64,000 nt of DNA from positions 49,262-113,261 of the forward strand of contig QIAN01000268.1 in assembly GCA_003225005.1 (NCBI GenBank), read 5' to 3'. The notes beneath the pieces were generated by a model. That model was not told the origin of the DNA. It ran no database searches and was given only the letters and a program-made list of their open reading frames with translations. Numbering within the stretch: the stretch's first letter is position 1; every line of letters starts with the position of its first letter. This DNA comes from Acidobacteriota bacterium. Lineage in GTDB: Bacteria; Acidobacteriota; Terriglobia; Terriglobales; Acidobacteriaceae. Position numbers and translations under genes: made by a program. Shown in pieces: positions 50,574-63,383 of the stretch.

Positions 50574-51557
50574 ATGAATCGAAGCACGAAAACCCTGCAC
50601 ATGGCCGTCACAGCGTCCTCACTGCTCCTTGCGGTTGGAGCGTCAGGCTTTCTAACCGCCCCACGCACGGCCCGAGAGTTTCAGTTGCAAGCTGAATCGC
50701 CCCAGTTCTGGAACCTGGTGGATCACAACGCCAAGCTGAGCGTAGTGGGCACGGGTTTTGGATTTACCGAGGGACCGGTGTGGGATCAAGCGGGGTTCCT
50801 CTATGTGAGCGACGAAACCATTAACAAGATTTTCCGGCTACACCCCGATGGCAAAAAGGAGGAGGTGATTGCGCTGGGCGATCCCGACGGCAATACCTTC
50901 GACCGCCAGCATCGGCTGATTGACTGTGCCAGCGTGTTGCGCGCCATCATCGAAGTAACTCCCGACGGAAAATACAAAATCCTGGCGGATCGCTATGACG
51001 GCAAGAAACTTAATAGTCCCAACGATGTGGTCGTTGGCCCGGACAACGCTCTGTATTTCACGGATCCGACCCTCGATCTGGTGGCTGGAGAAAAGCAGGA
51101 AATCCCGTTCCAGGGCGTTTATCGCCTTGACGCCGAGGGCAACCTCCAGTTACTCACCAAAGACCTCACGCAGCCAAACGGTCTGGCTTTTTCGCCGGAC
51201 GGCAAGCACTTCTACGTCGACGACAGCAAACAAAGAAATATCCGTGTGTACGATGTTGCCGCTGACGGAACCCTCACCGACGGCCGCATCTTCGGCGAGG
51301 AGCCAGGGGGGAAGGGCGATGGCGTACCAGATGGAATGAAAGTGGATAAGAACGGCAACGTCTTTGTGACTGGGCCAAAGGGCATCTGGGTCTGGGACCC
51401 CGGAGGAAATCACCTCGGTACCATCCTCATGCCGGAGCAACCGGCAAATCTGAACTGGGGCGACAAGGAGTATCGCACGCTTTACATCACGGCCACCACG
51501 TCAGTCTATCGACTCGAAATGAAGACTCAGGGCTATGTGCCGTACCTTGAGCCCTGA
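50574..51557 (+). CDS. secreted SMP-30/gluconolactonase family protein
   Basis: GFGFTEGPVWDQAGFLYVSDETINKIFRLHPDGK...SPNDVVVGPDNALYFTDP...QPNGLAFSPDGKHFYVDDS. Confidence 0.93.
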   Translation: MNRSTKTLHMAVTASSLLLAVGASGFLTAPRTAREFQLQAESPQFWNLVDHNAKLSVVGTGFGFTEGPVWDQAGFLYVSDETINKIFRLHPDGKKEEVIALGDPDGNTFDRQHRLIDCASVLRAIIEVTPDGKYKILADRYDGKKLNSPNDVVVGPDNALYFTDPTLDLVAGEKQEIPFQGVYRLDAEGNLQLLTKDLTQPNGLAFSPDGKHFYVDDSKQRNIRVYDVAADGTLTDGRIFGEEPGGKGDGVPDGMKVDKNGNVFVTGPKGIWVWDPGGNHLGTILMPEQPANLNWGDKEYRTLYITATTSVYRLEMKTQGYVPYLEP

Positions 51558-51637: not shown

Positions 51638-53800
51638 ATGGTGTCGCGCATCAAAGGTCGACAAGTTGGAGTCTGTAAAAGGATCGCTCTTTTTCTTTGG
51701 ACCGTAAGCTTCTGGACAACCAGCGCGGCGATCGCTCAGACGATCCTGGTCGACGCCGCGCCCTCGCACGTCGTCAATACTTTCAGTCCCGTCCGCTCTC
51801 TGGGCGCAGCCATTGATCGGCTGAGGACTGGAACGCCCGACCATTTGCTGACCGACCCGGTCCTCAAGGAGATCCTCGGCGCGGGATGGCAAACCGTAAC
51901 CTATCGCCAGAACACGGAGCTGATGGTCGAGGCGTGGCACTGGAACCCGCACGGCACCTGGAGTGACACGGAGAAGCAGCAGGGTTACTTTGTGGGCAGC
52001 GCGGAGCCAACCGCGGAGATGATCCGCCATTCGTGGGCGGCCCCGCTTCCACACCGCGGCTTCAGCCGGGGCGATGGAAACGGCTGGTCCCGGCTCACCG
52101 ACGGCGACCCGAAATCGTACTGGAAGAGCAATCCGTACCTCACGAAAGCCTTTACCGGAGAAGACGATTCGCTGCACCCACAGTGGGTGATGATCGATCT
52201 CGGTAGCAAAATCCCCGTCAATGCCATACGAATTGCCTGGGCCGAGCCCTACGCGAAACACTACTCAATCCAGTTCTGGACGGGCGAACTGGAACCCTTC
52301 TATGACGGCACCACCAAGGGTAGCTGGCAAACTTTCCCGTTGGGCGCCATCACCGAAGGCAAGGGCGGCACCGTCACGCTGAAGCTGGTTTCTTGGATGA
52401 TCCCCGTCAGATACCTCCGCATCTGGATGACGGAATCTTCCAACACCTGCGACAGTCATGATTCAGGCGAGCACGTTTCGACCGACAAGCGAAACTGCGT
52501 GGGCTACGCCATCAATGAACTCTATGTCGGGGCGCTCTCGGCCGATGGCCAGTTCAACGATTACGTCACTCATTTCCCCAGCCGCAATCAGACCGTGACG
52601 TGGCCATCCTCGGTTGACCCATGGCATGCCGCTTCCGATATGGACGAATCGCGAGGAGACCAGGTCGGATTCGATTTCTTTTTCAGCAGCGGGGTCACGC
52701 GCGGGCTTCCGACGATGGTTCCGATTGCGATGTTATATTCCACGCCAGAGGATGCGGCGAATGAGATTGCGTATCTGTACAAACGCCACTACGCGATCTC
52801 CTGGATCGAGATGGGAGAAGAGGCTGACGGGCAGCACATGCTGCCCGAAGACTACGGCGCGTTGTATCTGCAATTCGCCACCGCGATTCACCGGCTCGTT
52901 CCCGAGGCAAAGCTGGGCGGTCCACCCTTCGAAGGAACGTTTGATGATGTTGAAGTGTGGCCGGACGCGGCCGGGAGAGTCTCGTGGCTCGGACGGTTCG
53001 TCGACTACCTCAAAGCCCACGGCCGGCTGAACGATTTCACCTTTTTTTCTTTCGAGCATTATCCCTACCAAGACAAGCCCACCTACTCGTGGGCCGACCT
53101 ATACCCGGAGCCGGGATACGTCAGCCACATCGTTCAAGTCTGGAATGACAATGGCTTGCCACCGAATATTCCCTTCTTCATGACCGAGGGCAACATTGGG
53201 GGCGGAGCCGGGCCTTCGACCGTCAAGAGTGCATTATGGCTCGCCGACTATGTCGGTTCCATGATGACCGCCGGTGCCGGGGCCACCTATTTTTTTCACT
53301 ACATGCCTTATCCCGGCCACTTTAGCGGCTTTCTCCTGCTCGATGAAAAGTACAATGTGACGGGCTATCCTCCGCAATACTTGGCCACGCAGGTGATCAC
53401 TAAGGAGTGGGTCCAGCCCGTCGATGCTCCGCACAAACTCTTCAGGGCTTCGAGCGACGTGACCGACGCCGGCGGCACCTTGCTGGTCACGGCCTACGCC
53501 GTCCAGCGGCCCGACGGACAGTGGTCCGTGATGCTGGTCAACCGGGACCAGTACAACGATCACGCGGTGAAGCTAGTATTCAACGATCCGGAAACCAAGC
53601 GCGACCGCCATTTCTCCGGTCAGGTTGATCGCATTACTTTCGGATCCGCAGAATACCTGTGGCACCCCGAAGGAGAACGCGGCCACGCTGACCCCGACGG
53701 CCCGCCCTCAAAGTCGAGGGTCAGCGGCGGTGCAGAAACTCTCTATAAACTTCCGATGGCATCCGTCACGGTGCTGCGCGGCTCCATCGGAGACCAGTAA
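51638..53800 (+). CDS. secreted protein with F5/8 type C (discoidin)-like module and GH-like barrel
   Basis: SRLTDGDPKSYWKSNPYLTKAFTGEDDSLHPQWVMIDLGSKIPVNAIRIAWAEPYAKHYSIQFW; signal peptide. Confidence 0.65.
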   Translation: MVSRIKGRQVGVCKRIALFLWTVSFWTTSAAIAQTILVDAAPSHVVNTFSPVRSLGAAIDRLRTGTPDHLLTDPVLKEILGAGWQTVTYRQNTELMVEAWHWNPHGTWSDTEKQQGYFVGSAEPTAEMIRHSWAAPLPHRGFSRGDGNGWSRLTDGDPKSYWKSNPYLTKAFTGEDDSLHPQWVMIDLGSKIPVNAIRIAWAEPYAKHYSIQFWTGELEPFYDGTTKGSWQTFPLGAITEGKGGTVTLKLVSWMIPVRYLRIWMTESSNTCDSHDSGEHVSTDKRNCVGYAINELYVGALSADGQFNDYVTHFPSRNQTVTWPSSVDPWHAASDMDESRGDQVGFDFFFSSGVTRGLPTMVPIAMLYSTPEDAANEIAYLYKRHYAISWIEMGEEADGQHMLPEDYGALYLQFATAIHRLVPEAKLGGPPFEGTFDDVEVWPDAAGRVSWLGRFVDYLKAHGRLNDFTFFSFEHYPYQDKPTYSWADLYPEPGYVSHIVQVWNDNGLPPNIPFFMTEGNIGGGAGPSTVKSALWLADYVGSMMTAGAGATYFFHYMPYPGHFSGFLLLDEKYNVTGYPPQYLATQVITKEWVQPVDAPHKLFRASSDVTDAGGTLLVTAYAVQRPDGQWSVMLVNRDQYNDHAVKLVFNDPETKRDRHFSGQVDRITFGSAEYLWHPEGERGHADPDGPPSKSRVSGGAETLYKLPMASVTVLRGSIGDQ

Positions 53801-54032: not shown

Positions 54033-54632
54033 ATGGCAATCAACACTCGACGCAACTTCTTTGTAAAGATCGCTGCCGTGGCGGCTCTCGTAACCGGCGC
54101 GCCGAAATTCTTTGCTCAGCAGACTCCTCCTGCCGGCGCACCCACGCCGGCTAAGACACCGGTGGGCGGACCTGGTGGAGATACGCCTCGTCGCCCCGGC
54201 GGCGGTAATCATACACACGATGGGATCTACTACTTCTCCGGCACAGGTTCCAATGACGGCTATCCCAAGGAAGATCACGTCCTCGTAACGGACCCCTTCG
54301 AAAAACACGTCACTCGCGCCATGGACGCGCTCAAGAAGTCGGTCGAGCGTGCGGGCTGCACGATGGACAGCATCATCCATCTCGAGGTTTTTCTCTGCCT
54401 GCCTCTAGCCGACGGTATCCCCACGCCCACCGGCAAGGCACGGTTCGAAGCTCATAAGGCGCAGTACGACGCGTTGAACAAGATCTACGGGACCTATTTC
54501 TCCCCAGGCAAAGCTCCGTCGCGCGCCTGCATGGCCCTCGAATGGATTCCTGGCGATTCGCTGATTGAAATCGTGGGGAGCGCAGTGGTCGTCACTCCGC
54601 CCACCGCGCCCACACCGCCTGCTGATAAATAA
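54033..54632 (+). CDS. RidA/YjgF family protein with Tat-like signal
   Basis: MAINTRRNFFVKIAAVAALVTGAPKFFA... then DGIYYFSGTGSND...VTRAMDALKKSVERAGCTMDSIIHLEVFL. Confidence 0.75.
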   Translation: MAINTRRNFFVKIAAVAALVTGAPKFFAQQTPPAGAPTPAKTPVGGPGGDTPRRPGGGNHTHDGIYYFSGTGSNDGYPKEDHVLVTDPFEKHVTRAMDALKKSVERAGCTMDSIIHLEVFLCLPLADGIPTPTGKARFEAHKAQYDALNKIYGTYFSPGKAPSRACMALEWIPGDSLIEIVGSAVVVTPPTAPTPPADK

Positions 54633-54646
54633 TTGCGCGAAAGATA

Positions 54647-56052
54647 TTGAAAAGGAAACTGCGCATGAATTTGAAGTTTGGTCGGAGTCGACGTTCATTT
54701 CTAGCCGCGCTCGGGGCCGCCAGCGGCAGCCTGTTCGCTCCGGCTGAGTTGAGCGCTGCGGGGATCTTTCGCAAGAAACCCAAGCCGTCCATGCCCTCCG
54801 TCGACGGCAGCCCCATCGTACCCGTCACTACGGGCCTCGGTTCTACCGGCGACATCTACGCCGAGCTTGGAATAACACCTCTCGTCAACATCAATGGCAC
54901 TGTCACCGTCATCGGAGGGTCGGTGATGGCGCCGGAGGTCATGGAGCTGATCCGGAGAGGCAACGAGCACTTCGTTCTGATCGACGATCTCGAGATCGCA
55001 GCTGGTAAGTTCATCGCGAAACTGTGTAACTCCCCCGCCGGCTATACCGCTCTGGTGACGGGTGGTGCAGCCGCGGCCATGGTCGTCGGCTACGCCGGCA
55101 TGATGACCGAAGACCTCGAGCCCCGCATGCACGACATTCCCGACGTGAGCAATTTTCCCAGGAACGAAGTCATCATCCAGAAGAGCCATCGATATCCGTT
55201 TGATCACCAGATCCGCCAGACCGGCGCGAAGCTGGTCGAAGTCGAGACCCGTGAAGAGATGATTGCTGCCATCAATTCGAAGACCGTCGCTATTCACTTC
55301 ACCAATATCCTGTCCGACAAGGGCAAGATCAGCGGCCCCGAGACGGTCGAAATCGCCAGGGCCCACAATATCTACACCTTCAATGATGCGGCAGCGGACG
55401 TGCCGCCGAAGGAGCGGCTCTGGGAGTATCCGGCAATCGGCTTCGACATGGTCACCTTCAGCGGCGGGAAGGATATCCGCGGACCACAGGCATCCGGCGT
55501 TTTGATCGGCAGGGAAGATCTGATCCGTTACTCCCTGCTGAACATGAGCCCGCAGGAAGATCGCATCGGCCGTTGCTGCGAGGTTGGCAAGGAGACCATT
55601 TTCGGCCTGCTCAAGGCGCTCGAGATCTTTGTCAATCAGGACTCCGACGCCATGCTGAGGGTGTACGACGAGCGCGCACAAATCATCAGCGATGCCGTGA
55701 AGAAGTTCGGAGTGACGGCGCGCCTCGGCAGTTCAACCCTCAAGCTCTCGGCAACGTGACGCCGCGTTACAGCTGGCAGATCGATCCGTCCAAGCTGAAC
55801 ATCACCGGGCCGGAAGTTATGCAGAAACTGGCCGACACCCGGCCAATGGGTATCGGCAGCATGGGCGTCGGTTCGAGCGGCATGCGGGGACGCAATCCGG
55901 ACGCGCCGGCCGGTGACAATCACGGCGGCCATCATGGCCATCCCAGCGACCCGAACAGCTTCGGTTTTGCTGTCTGGCAGCTCAAGGACGGCGAGGACAA
56001 GATGATCGCGGACCGCCTGGTCGAGATCTTTAGCGCAGCCCCGAAGGCCTAG
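54647..56052 (+). pseudogene. SelA/DgaE-like PLP-dependent enzyme with Tat-like signal, frameshift near 55723-55760
   Basis: GRSRRSFLAALGAASGSLFAP signal; FDMVTFSGGKDIRGPQASGVLIGRED PLP region; C-terminus continues in another frame QFNPQALGNVTPRYSWQIDPSKLNITGPEVMQKL. Confidence 0.8.
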
Positions 56053-57116: not shown

Positions 57117-58505
57117 TTGGCCACGTGTGGGCACAGCGATTGTTCTCAAGGTTGGGGTGCGCGCGCGCGATTAACCGGTGGTCTGTGTGCCGCGCGGTTT
57201 TCGGATGAAAGGTACAAAATGACGGCGGGAGGAGGTGCAATTCCGAAAGCTCGTTGGGTTCGAATCCTCCCTGGCACCGTTCTGATTTATGTCCTCGCCT
57301 ACATGGACCGCATGAATATCAGCTTGGCGATGGCTGGGGGAATCAATAGAGATTTACATCTATCGATGACGCTGTCTGGCCTTGCCGCGGGAGTCTTCTT
57401 CATCGGATACATGCTCCTGCAGGTTCCGGCGGGTCATATCGCGGAACACCTAAGCGCCAAGAAATACGTCTTGTGGTCCATACTGGCCATGGGCATGGTT
57501 TCGTTTCTTACCGGGTTTGTGCAAAATGGCGTGCAGCTCATCGGGATGCGATTTCTTTTGGGCGTCGCTGAAGGCGGGATCTATCCTGCGCTGCTGATAG
57601 TCGTCAGCAATTGGTTTCCCAGTAAAGAAATTGGCCGCGCGAACGCTGTTTTTCTAGCCAGTCTACCTCTGTCCACAGTTCTTACCAATCCGATCTCGGG
57701 TTGGCTCGTATCCAGATATGACTGGCGTTGAATGTTCGTTGTGGAAGGTGGCCTGTCTATTTTGCTGGTCCTATTGTGGCTACCGATGATCAGCGATCGG
57801 CCTGGGCAAGCGAAATGGATATCTTTGGAAGAGAAGAACTACTTGGAAGAAACGTTGGAAGCCGAGCGTTTGGCCAGCGAACGCCGTTTCCAGCCCCAAG
57901 CCGGCGCCGATTGGTCTTACAAGCGTCTACTGCGGGACAAAAATCTTTGGCTGATGACATTCATTGTCATTTGCTACACCACCGGGCAGTATGGCTACTC
58001 TATTTGGCTCCCGACTCTGCTCTCGGGACTAACGCGAATGAGCTTAGGAAAGGTAGGCTGGCTGTCCTCTCTACCGTTTCTGGTTGCATTGGGCGGATTA
58101 TACGTTTTCGGCGCCTTGTCCGACAAACGCCGCAACCGTCGTCTCTGGACATCAGTTTCGTTGGCCAGTTTTTCATTCAGCCTGTTGCTAGCGACCTGGT
58201 TCACACGCTGGGCATGGTTTGCCTTTGCTTTGCTGGTGTTTACAGGATTTTTCTTAAAAGCCATGCAGAGCCCTTTCTGGGCCATGCCTGCGTTGCTTTT
58301 CCCACCGGGATTCTCGGGCGGAGCGCGCGGTTTTATCAATGCCGTCGGAAACCTAGGAGGCTTTGTTGGTCCACTTCTGGTCGGCTGGTCCGTGACTCTC
58401 ACTGGCAAAATGCAGTATGGCAGCTACTGTCTTGTTCTCGCCTTACTGGCGGGTGCGGGGATTACTCTGCTGCTGCCCACACTGACGACGGGGCGAGAGA
58501 ACTGA
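57117..58505 (+). pseudogene. MFS transporter (ACS/hexuronate-type) split by an in-frame TGA at 57729-57731
   Basis: ARWVRILPGTVLIYVLAYMDRMNISLAMAGG...SRYDWR*MFVVEGGLSILLVLLWLPMISDRPGQAKWIS; both halves in the same frame. Confidence 0.9.
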
Positions 58506-58509
58506 CACC

Positions 58510-60651
58510 TGTCCCGTTCTGGCATTTGCCCACGCCGGGCTTACCTACCAGCGGTGATTTCGGAACCTACTCTTTTAGCGCGCAACAGATTGCCAATGAG
58601 AATTTTTTCACGACTCGAGTGGATCATTCGATTGCAACGAAGGACGAACTTGCCGGCACTTACGTCTTCGACAACGCACCCTACACGCTCCCGGATGGGC
58701 TGAATATTACCTTGTAGGGGTATCTCGTGCGTCAAACCTTCGCTCTGGCAGAGACCCATGTTTTCAGCCCAAGCCTGCTGAACGCGTTCCACGTTGGATT
58801 CAATCGCGTGAGGACATATAACAATAAGGGAGTGAGCGCGATTAATCCGCTCGGCAAAGACAGTTCTCTCGCCTCGACTCCGGGAGAAAATGCAGCCCGG
58901 GTACAGGTACCGGGACTCGCTTCGCTTCCGGGCGGCGTCGGGGCAGTGGATTACTTTACCCATGGCTGGAATTCGTACCGGGCATACGATGACGCGTTTC
59001 CTACCCGAGGCGTTCACAGCTTCAAGTTTGAGCGGCTGCGGAATACATCCGATCCAATTCGACGGGATTTTCTGATGTTGCGGGAAACTGGTCTTTCAAT
59101 ACTTTTTCGGACTTCCTGACGAACAATCCTGCCCATTTTGATTCCGCTTTAATAATCCGCGTCACTACGCAACGTTCGCCAAACGATCTTCGGCACTTAC
59201 GTGCAAGACACCTGGAAAATACGACCAAATTTGAATCTGGATTTTGGTTTGCGCTACGAGATGGCGACCGTTCCTTCCGAGGTGCACGGGAAGTTCGTTT
59301 CCCTGCGGAACCTGACCGACACCCAACCGAGAGTCGGGAAGCAGGTCTTCGGCAACCCAACGTTGCGCAACTTTGAACCTCGGCTCGGTTTTGCGTGGTC
59401 TCCCTTCAGTGACTCGAAAACCGTGGTCCACGGCGGGGTTGGTCTTTTCGACGTACTACCGCTTCCCTATGTGGTTCAACTGTTACAAGTTCGGCCCGCC
59501 CCCTTCAACTCAATCGGAGGTCTAAATTCGGGACTCGCGGGGACGTTTTATACAGGCGCATATTCTCTGCTTACCCCCAACACCTTGGCCTCGACCTTTA
59601 TCCAACAGAATCCGAAGCGGAATTACGTAGCAACCTGGCACCTCAACGTGCAAAGGGAAGTCACTCCGAACTTCGCTTTCATTGTTGGGTGCGTTGGCTC
59701 GCGCGGTGTGCATCAGCAGTTCAAGGTTGACGATGCGGACATGACTCTGCCGACATTGACCTCGGCGGGCTACGTGTTCCCTTACTCTACAACTGGAACT
59801 CCGCCGCCCACTTTGAATCCCAACTTTAGTGCCATTGGCTCGCTGTGGTGGGACGGTCACTCGTCGTACGACGGACTCCAAGTGGGGGCGACCAAGAGGC
59901 TAAGCCGGGGCTTCCAATTTAAGGCATCCTACACCTAGTCGAAAACCATCGACGACAACTCGACCGGCGCTGGCGCCGATTCCTTCAACAATTCCTTCAG
60001 TAGTCTGCACTGGTATGACTTGCGGTTAAATAAGTCGCTCGCTGACTTCAACACGCCCCGCGTGCTGGTGGCAAGCATTACCTGGGACTTGCCGAACCCC
60101 AAGATGTCCTCGGTTGTCGGTGAGAAGGTGTTGGGCGGATGGGAGATGGGAGCCATTTTCACTGCGCATGACGGCCAACCTTTCAGCGAACTACTTTCCG
60201 GCGACGTGGTGGGACAAAATAGCAGCGATCCATTTTCATTCCCCGAACGTCTGACAGGCCCCGGGTGCAATACGCTGGTAAATCCCGGCAACAGAGACAA
60301 CTACGTAAAGACTCAGTGCTTTTCGGTGCCGACTGCTCCCACGCAAGCTTTTTACAACACGTATTGCAATCCTGCCACGCCGTTTCCAACATGCAGCAAT
60401 CTTCTGGGCAATGCGAGGCGCAATATCCTCGCCAGTCCAGGCTACAAGAATTTCGACTTCTCGCTCTACGAGAACACACGAATTACCGAGCGAGAGTGGA
60501 CACGCAATTCTGCGCCGAGTTTTTCAATGTGTTGAATCACCCGAACTTCCAAGGGCCGTTCGATACCAACACGATCGATCAACCGGGTGCGCTGCTACAC
60601 ACGATTGGGGATGCCCGCGACATTCAATTTGCGCTTAAAGTCATTTTCTAG
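58510..60651 (+). pseudogene. decayed TonB-dependent (Oar-like) receptor lacking its N-terminus
   Basis: Segments ALAETHVFSPSLLNAFHVGFNRVRT, IFGTYVQDTWKIRPNLNLDFGLRYEM, NYVATWHLNVQREVTPNFAFIVGCVGSRG, EFFNVLNHPNFQGPF, separated by stops (58715, 59936) and frame shifts. Confidence 0.88.
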
Positions 60652-61637: not shown

Positions 61638-63383
61638 ATGACCAAAGCGCGCAAGACGCCTGAACAGCTGAGAAGCCATCGCTGGTATGGCGTGGACGAT
61701 CTGCGTTCTTTTGGCCATCGCTCACGAACGGCACAGATGGGCTACACGGCGTCCGATTATATGGGCAAGCCGGTGATTGCCATCGTCAACACCTGGAGCG
61801 AGATTAATCCTTGTCACTCGCACTTTAAAGAACGCGCCGAGGAAGTAAAGCGAGGCATCTGGCAGGCTGGCGGCTTTCCGGTGGAGATGCCTGTGATGAC
61901 ACTCTCCGAGCCCTTCCAAAAACCGACGACGATGTTGTACCGAAACTTCCTAGCCATGGAGGTGGAGGAAGTTTTGCGTTCCTATCCTTTCGATGGCGCT
62001 GTGCTGATGGGTGGGTGCGACAAAACAACGCCGGGGCTGCTCATGGGCGCGTTCAGCATGGACCTGCCGACGATTTACTTGCCGGCTGGACCAATGCTGC
62101 GCGGCAACTGGAACGGCCGCGTCCTCGGCAGTGGCACGGACACCTGGAAATACGCCGCGGAATTGAAGGCGGGGAAGATCACGAACATGGAATGGAAAAG
62201 CATCGAGACGGGCATCGCGCGATCAGCCGGCCATTGCATGACGATGGGTACGGCCTCGACGATGACCAGCGCGGCGGAAGCGCTCGGCCTAACGTTGCCG
62301 GGATTTTCGTCCATTCCGGCGGTGGACTCCCGCCATGCGCAGTATGCCTCGCTGACCGGTAAAAGGATCGTGGAAATGGTTTGGGAGGACCTGAAACCTT
62401 CCGACTTCCTCACCGACAAATCTTTCGACAACGCGATCACGACAGTGCTGGCTCTGGGTGGCTCGACCAATTCGATCGTCCATCTGATTGCCCTGGCGCG
62501 CCGCGCGGGGTTGACCTTGACGCTTGATCGCTTTGATGAACTGGCACGCCGCACGCCCGTACTGGCAAATATCCGCCCCGCCGGAGAATTCTTAATGGAG
62601 GATTTTTATTATGCGGGTGGGCTCTCGGCGTTGATGGCGGAACTAGAGGATCTGGTTGACACTACGCAAAGAACAGTAAACGGAATGTCCGTCGGAGAAA
62701 ATATCCGCGACGCGCAGATTTATAACGATGCAGTGATTCGCCGACGTTCAAATCCGTTGGTCGAACACGATGGGCTCGCAGTGTTGCGCGGAAATCTGGC
62801 CCCCGATGGAGCGGTCATTAAACCCCCGGCAATGGAATCGCACCTTAAATTGCACACCGGCCCCGCCATCGTATTCCGCGACTACAACGACATGGCGGCG
62901 CGGATCGATGACCCAAAACTTCCGGTTACTGCCGAGTCAGTCATCGTGCTGCAAAATGCAGGGCCGGTTGGCGCGCCCGGGATGCCGGAATGGGGCCAAT
63001 TACCAATTCCGGAGAAGCTCCTGAAAGCCGGAGTGCGCGACATGGTCCGTATCTCCGATGCGCGCATGAGTGGCACCAGCTACGGAGCCTGCGTGCTGCA
63101 TGTGTCGCCGGAATCTTTTGTGGGGGGACCGCTCGCACTGGTGCGCGATGGCGATTTAATCGAGCTCGACGTGGCCGCCCGCAGGCTGAGTCTTCTCGTT
63201 TCGGAAGAGGAATTAGCGCGGAGGAAGGCCGCGTGGACAGCGCCGAAGCCGAGATTTGCGCGCGGTTATGGCGTATTGAACCAGCTCCACGTGCTGCAAG
63301 CCGACAAAGGTTGCGATTTTGACTTTCTGGAAGAGCCGCCGCGGGAGCAAGCAGCGAGCACAGCAGACCCTGAAATCCACTAG
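61638..63383 (+). CDS. IlvD/Edd family dehydratase (sugar-acid dehydratase-like)
   Basis: [93 protein letters not shown]. Confidence 0.93.

Follow-up and report, generated by a model that had tools for sequence, protein, structure and literature searches.

A recurring gene pair for a predicted Tat-exported Rid protein and a DgaE-like PLP enzyme in Acidobacteriota and Bacteroidota

Introduction

Work on Rid proteins has treated them as guards that protect PLP enzymes from enamine damage in the cytoplasm or in organelles, and few other PLP enzymes are found in the periplasm. A survey of the Rid family makes no mention of the periplasm or of signal peptides (PMC4433059). The closest described counterpart of the PLP enzyme considered here is DgaE. 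Its H163A variant kept steady-state activity, accumulated a 293-nm intermediate and gave products that were explained by enamine release (DgaE paper); the authors suggest that His-163 prevents release of a cytotoxic enamine, and they mention RidA. That PLP-loaded, folded enzymes can be exported by the twin-arginine (Tat) route has a precedent in PvdN and PtaA, according to the passages on these enzymes in PMC6206403. Here we describe a Rid gene and a DgaE/SelA-like PLP-enzyme gene that lie side by side and both begin with twin-arginine signals. We are highly confident that this is a real, recurring gene pair whose products are exported.

Results

The gene pair and its surroundings

The window, by which we mean the whole stretch of 64,000 nt that was analyzed, comes from an Acidobacteriota genome of 7.9 Mb in 550 contigs. 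The features discussed are the following.

50574..51557, + strand: SMP-30/gluconolactonase-like protein with N-terminal hydrophobic signal (PF08450, 173 bits; G022 gene order)
51638..53800, + strand: secreted protein with F5/8-type carbohydrate-binding domain (PF22633/PF00754; G022 gene order)
54033..54632, + strand: Rid-family (PF01042) gene with twin-arginine signal (PF01042, 45.5 bits; catalytic residues; RutC/RidA fold)
54033..54119, end approximate, + strand: Tat-like signal of the RidA-type protein, MAINTRRNFFVKIAAVAALVTGAPKFFAQ (RR in 26/27 aligned Rid proteins)
54665..55759, + strand: N-terminal portion of a DgaE/SelA-like PLP enzyme whose gene is frameshifted (TIGR01437, PF03841, PLP-lysine motif)
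54665..54763, end approximate, + strand: Tat-like signal of the PLP enzyme, MNLKFGRSRRSFLAALGAASGSLFAPAELSAAG (RR conservation)
55722..56052, + strand: C-terminal remainder of this PLP enzyme, read in another frame (alignment to the stop codon of intact orthologues)
57219..58505, + strand: gene for an MFS transporter of the sugar-acid type, with a single in-frame stop (PF07690; TIGR00893, 132.7 bits, first part)

The Rid reading frame starts with an ATG at 54033, just preceded by GGAGGAG, and ends at 54632. A gap of 32 bp separates it from the PLP-enzyme reading frame, which starts with an ATG at 54665; the whole gene extends to 56052 across two frames. Compared with three intact relatives, the window PLP gene is one nucleotide shorter around 55721–55725, and after the frame break its protein stays highly similar to intact orthologues up to their end. 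This places the lesion, with the reading frame ending at 55759, where the first-pass annotation had seen a frameshift (near 55723–55760). Either recent decay or a sequence error would fit. Intact relatives of the PLP gene, 83–87% identical, were found in three genomes of the same genus (G022, G009 and G006), and further ones in Terriglobus sp. nzgw68 and isolate ZG23-2. The paralogous Rid/PLP pairs elsewhere in the window genome have unbroken reading frames.

The lactonase-like and F5/8-domain genes lie upstream of the pair in the same direction, the identical four-gene order is found in G022, and the two genes probably belong to the same gene group. Downstream, the TIGR00893-like MFS gene carries its single in-frame stop near 57729–57731, the second lesion in this region after the frameshift of the nearby PLP gene, and remnants of a TonB-dependent/carboxypeptidase-like outer-membrane protein are spread over several frames at 58541–60651. 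An intact IlvD/EDD dehydratase gene (61638–63383; 975 bits against a curated cut-off of 882 for L-arabinonate dehydratase) adjoins a GntR/FCD regulator and is one more sugar-acid catabolism gene in the window.

Family membership and fold

The Rid protein scores 45.5 bits against PF01042, above the gathering cut-off of 27.3, and stays below the curated subfamily cut-offs (TIGR00004, 36.4 of 106 bits; RutC TIGR03610, 40.5 of 169 bits). Its fold is of the RutC/RidA type. The broken PLP reading frame matches the DgaE family TIGR01437 over residues 64–353 with 138.8 bits, below the curated cut-off of 385.3, and PF03841 with 26.2 bits. The best TIGR01437 score in the window genome, 179.2 bits, and that of the intact Chitinophaga enzyme, 207.3 bits, are also below 385.3. 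Judged by these scores, the Tat-type PLP enzymes are DgaE homologues, yet outside the curated DgaE family.

A profile search of solved structures returned DgaE (7lc0) first, with an E-value of 8e-58 and 200 bits; Cap15 scored 180 bits. Similarly, the structure modelled for L093, a close orthologue (pLDDT 86.7), was nearest to DgaE 7lc0 (TM 0.86) and then to Cap15 8t7j (TM 0.85), the comparison with Cap15 being one of overall similarity. Coordinates, peptides and family matches thus agree with the adjacent RidA and SelA/DgaE-like genes of the first-pass annotation, and DgaE is the nearest fold both by profile and by model structure.

Recurrence of the pair

A scan of named genomes yielded 586 relatives of the PLP enzyme. 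The best 80 come mostly from Acidobacteriota and Bacteroidota, and also from Balneolota, Planctomycetota and a few metagenome-assembled genomes labelled otherwise. At the loci of these best 80, a Rid gene lies within 1.5 kb of 28 of the 74 PLP genes. As this list is biased towards the query, we added an even draw of 149 Acidobacteriota genomes, in which the PLP enzyme occurs at 35 places in 13 genomes. At least 16 of the 35 are separated from a Rid gene by less than 1 kb, where about 0.1 would be expected by chance assuming about two Rid genes per 4-Mb genome. Conversely, 10 of the best 11 Rid matches in this draw adjoin such a PLP-enzyme gene.

The window genome itself encodes four such PLP enzymes, each with an RR signal. 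On contig C293 a Tat-Rid gene lies 20 bp upstream of the PLP enzyme; on C51 the enzyme is accompanied by a protein that has a Sec-like N-terminus and matches the Rid domain three times; on C24 a secreted amidohydrolase is present and a Rid neighbor is absent. Of the 24 same-genus genomes searched, many have these same locus types. On a tree of the PLP enzymes the Rid-paired genes form three main separated groups, and the paired label requires 7 changes, against 15.5 with shuffled labels; well-supported branches force at least three. The pair is carried by isolates of Acidobacteriota and Bacteroidota, with Chitinophaga filiformis DSM 527, Ulvibacterium marinum and isolate KBS 146 as cultured carriers. 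Recurrence, which the first-pass annotation had set as a test of the pair, was thus found repeatedly, isolate genomes included, and we reject a one-off or an assembly accident.

Several variant arrangements were seen. Proteins of ∼410–440 aa with a Sec-like N-terminus lie beside the clade-C PLP enzyme at six loci (L015 8671–9984, L050, L054, L059, L075 and L078); the one at L015 has three Rid-domain matches. In three genomes of the same family a single Rid gene is flanked by two PLP genes (G074:C1:507847-510988, G096:C1:509392-512578 and G182:C1:827437-830551). At L016 9441–9836 a 131-aa fragment that lacks a signal is probably the remnant of another PLP-enzyme gene of the family.

Export signals

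An RR precedes the catalytic domain in 115 of 116 PLP-enzyme relatives from several phyla and is invariant in the 17 PLP enzymes aligned within the genus. A simple home-made criterion (not SignalP), RR followed by a hydrophobic segment, is satisfied by 108 of the 116 relatives and by 97 of 743 other reading frames of the named loci, a control set that includes exported proteins and some reading frames that are not real genes. Both window proteins satisfy it. Among Rid proteins, 26 of the 27 aligned have the RR, the exception being cut by a contig end, and 27 of the 28 Rid genes near PLP genes at the loci of the best 80 relatives are Tat-like. TatC is encoded in all five genomes checked, namely the window genome and four named ones. 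These data suggest that Rid and the PLP enzyme are predicted Tat substrates, and the twin-arginine starts first noted in the window hold up in orthologues and paralogues alike.

Active-site residues

When the relatives are aligned with the solved DgaE sequence, all 116 of them have the PLP lysine, within an invariant FSGGK motif; this lysine corresponds to chain position 213 of DgaE, which the DgaE paper prints as Lys-217. The DgaE His 112 column holds His in 101 of 116 enzymes; this otherwise conserved His is lacking in the clade-C enzyme. The His-163 column holds His in 0 of 116, but it lies in a gapped loop and is approximate, with a His nearby in 14 of 116, and is therefore less certain than the lysine column. 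In the Rid proteins the catalytic Arg of the PxR motif and a later Glu are invariant in the 27 aligned relatives.

Given the enamine release reported for DgaE H163A, a missing His-163 would explain a Rid partner, and the reasoning of the DgaE paper would predict a natural His-less enzyme with a co-exported Rid. A strict rule that absence of His-163 entails a Rid neighbor was rejected, as clades D and E lack both.

Gene neighborhoods

Clade B clusters contain a PQQ-propeller protein, cytochrome c, a secreted SMP-30 lactonase, a secreted RraA-like protein, an IclR regulator and an MFS transporter, together with NagB-like or KDG-kinase-like enzymes. The paralogous operon in the window genome has the order PQQ-like, Rid, PLP enzyme, KDG-kinase-like kinase, KDPG aldolase; G022 has the same order with an MFS gene inserted between the PLP enzyme and the kinase. 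The aldolase scores 195 bits against TIGR01182 (cut-off 156). The kinase reaches 150 bits against a curated cut-off of 440, so that its substrate is a guess by family. Neither has a signal-like N-terminus. A KDG-kinase-like gene was seen at 7 loci and a KDPG aldolase gene at 2. These neighbors are the strongest hint that the product may be of the KDG type, and those beside the paralogous pair would lend indirect support to glucosaminate as the substrate.

Bacteroidota clusters contain a secreted amidohydrolase, an RraA-like protein, an SBF carrier and often a second, lipoprotein-like Rid. The amidohydrolase (453 bits against PRK09237, curated cut-off 371) lies beside many PLP genes, above all in Bacteroidota.

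The quinoprotein-like propellers at L014 9804–11423 and L059 12992–14626 score 544 and 548 of 650 bits with the ‘acido-empty quinoprotein’ model and lie just above the PQQ alcohol dehydrogenase cut-off. An upstream step in which glucosamine is oxidized with PQQ is retained as no more than a weak idea, because the score of the neighbor is near that model.

Discussion

The sequences themselves show the pairing of the two genes and their neighbors, the RR signals, TatC, the catalytic residues and the lack of a His at the His-163 column; from these we infer the transport, the reaction, the substrate and the role of Rid as follows. The PLP enzyme would be a periplasmic β-eliminating ammonia-lyase acting on 2-amino-2-deoxy-aldonates, with Rid finishing its product; we put the probability of this reading at roughly 0.5. 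The DgaE-type lyase would take up PLP and fold in the cytoplasm before export by Tat, and its Rid-family partner would be exported likewise. In the periplasm the lyase would dehydrate a 2-amino-2-deoxy-aldonate that is not phosphorylated; the most likely candidate is D-glucosaminate or an epimer, which would arise from amino sugars outside the cytoplasm. Because the lyase has no counterpart of the DgaE proton donor His-163, we propose that its product leaves as an enamine/imine, which Rid would hydrolyze to a 2-keto-3-deoxy acid (KDG-like) and ammonia. The keto acid would then be imported by the MFS or SBF carrier, and at some loci the KDG-kinase-like kinase may phosphorylate it and KDPG aldolase split the product.

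The extracytoplasmic ammonia-lyase and imine-clearing module suggested in the first-pass annotation is supported in part. Its core withstood each computational test applied, with recurrence, conserved signals, TatC and a DgaE fold in its favor. Against the lyase reading stand scores far under the curated DgaE cut-offs, the nearly equal similarity of the Cap15 fold, a link between His-163 and Rid that is not strict, the small number of aldolase and kinase loci, the low score of the kinase against curated cut-offs, and the broken window copy.

More tentatively, the whole catabolic front end for amino-sugar acids might be extracytoplasmic in Acidobacteriota and Bacteroidota, nitrogen being removed before import. 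An exported, enamine-releasing lyase would work with a dedicated exported Rid (single, triple-domain or lipoprotein), only the deaminated 2-keto-3-deoxy acid would enter the cell, and KDG kinase and KDPG aldolase would finish the route. The lyase would then act first and phosphorylation come later, the reverse of the DgaE route.

We consider it unlikely that the enzyme is an exported ammonia-lyase for another amino substrate, or for substrates that differ between clades. Candidates would be amino acids resembling D-serine or D-threonine that the secreted amidohydrolase releases from their N-acyl forms. The amidohydrolase's score above the PRK09237 cut-off (453 against 371 bits) and its position beside many PLP genes favor this, as do the five clades within one genus, which suggest differing substrates. 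The KDG-kinase-like and KDPG-aldolase genes beside clade B argue against it. Clades A and B are also surrounded by lactonase, cytochrome c, sugar-acid-type MFS and NagB-like genes, which speak against it too.

It appears quite unlikely that the PLP enzyme is an exported oxidase or oxygenase of the type of Cap15 and PvdN, dependent on both O2 and PLP, which converts an amino acid or amino-sugar acid, itself exported, into an amide or into an imine that Rid hydrolyzes. Cap15 is the second-best fold match (8t7j, TM 0.85 against 0.86 for DgaE) and shows that O2-dependent chemistry is within the reach of this fold, Cap15 and PvdN both use O2, and PvdN is a Tat substrate (for PvdN, the passages on it in PMC6206403); the DgaE profile score is nevertheless the higher one (200 against 180 bits), and the KDG-kinase-like and KDPG-aldolase neighbors suit an elimination product.

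That Rid is a periplasmic stress chaperone or structural protein rather than an imine hydrolase is improbable: chlorinated E. coli RidA turns into a chaperone, as stated in PMC4284807, whereas the exported Rid proteins have invariant catalytic Arg and Glu and specifically adjoin one PLP-enzyme family. Finally, RR alone falls short of proof of a functional Tat signal, but cytoplasmic retention of the proteins is very unlikely given the RR with hydrophobic residues after it, seen across several phyla in 108 of the 116 sequences, Sec-like or lipoprotein-like N-termini on neighboring enzymes, and TatC.

If the preferred lyase reading is true, the enamine problem exists in the periplasm too and is solved there by a dedicated exported Rid, and an amino-sugar route would be defined for abundant soil Acidobacteriota and for Bacteroidota. 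The presence of the predicted exported pair in numerous bacteria from soil and sea suggests that amino-sugar acids are used by a periplasmic route not yet described. The pair also offers a clean way to tell a Rid role in product release from one in protection.

Comparison with known systems

No published description of an exported Rid/PLP pair was found in the open-access literature, mostly at the level of titles and abstracts; as the search covered open-access papers only, this is weak evidence of novelty. The pairing of DgaE and Rid families is not wholly new, since an intracellular case is described: chitin clusters of Natrarchaeobius hold a DgaE homologue and a Rid/RutC-family gene near a glucose dehydrogenase and an IclR regulator (PMC12343721). 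There, in the part of that paper dealing with these clusters, the route is intracellular and phosphorylating, RutC is treated as a repressor and export is not mentioned. The EF_0837-type amidohydrolase families (PRK09237, TIGR03583) place an amidohydrolase beside a DgaE-type enzyme, as in the Bacteroidota loci, whereas in the loci described here export signals are found on all four proteins, namely amidohydrolase, RraA-like protein, PLP enzyme and Rid.

PvdN and PtaA of pseudomonads resemble our proposal in that a PLP enzyme is exported by Tat, folded with its cofactor, but they belong to a different fold-type I family and tailor siderophore side chains, and the passages on them in PMC6206403 mention no Rid partner. 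Cap15 (PDB 8t7j), an O2- and PLP-dependent monooxygenase-decarboxylase, shares the fold and belongs to a DgaE-like family; it serves antibiotic biosynthesis in Streptomyces, and the matched chain has no export signal. With the RidA/RutC imine/enamine deaminases the window Rid has PF01042, the fold and the catalytic Arg and Glu in common; it differs in its twin-arginine signal, its pairing with one PLP-enzyme family and its scores under the TIGR00004 and RutC cut-offs.

DgaE itself shares the fold and the PLP lysine with the Tat-type enzyme and is its closest profile match; a KDG-type product is proposed as a further shared trait. The solved DgaE sequence has no export signal, its substrate is phosphorylated and His-163 is its proton donor, whereas the Tat-type enzyme has a signal, lacks His-163 and adjoins a Rid partner. 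Phosphorylation precedes the lyase in the DgaE route; in the route proposed here the kinase would follow it.
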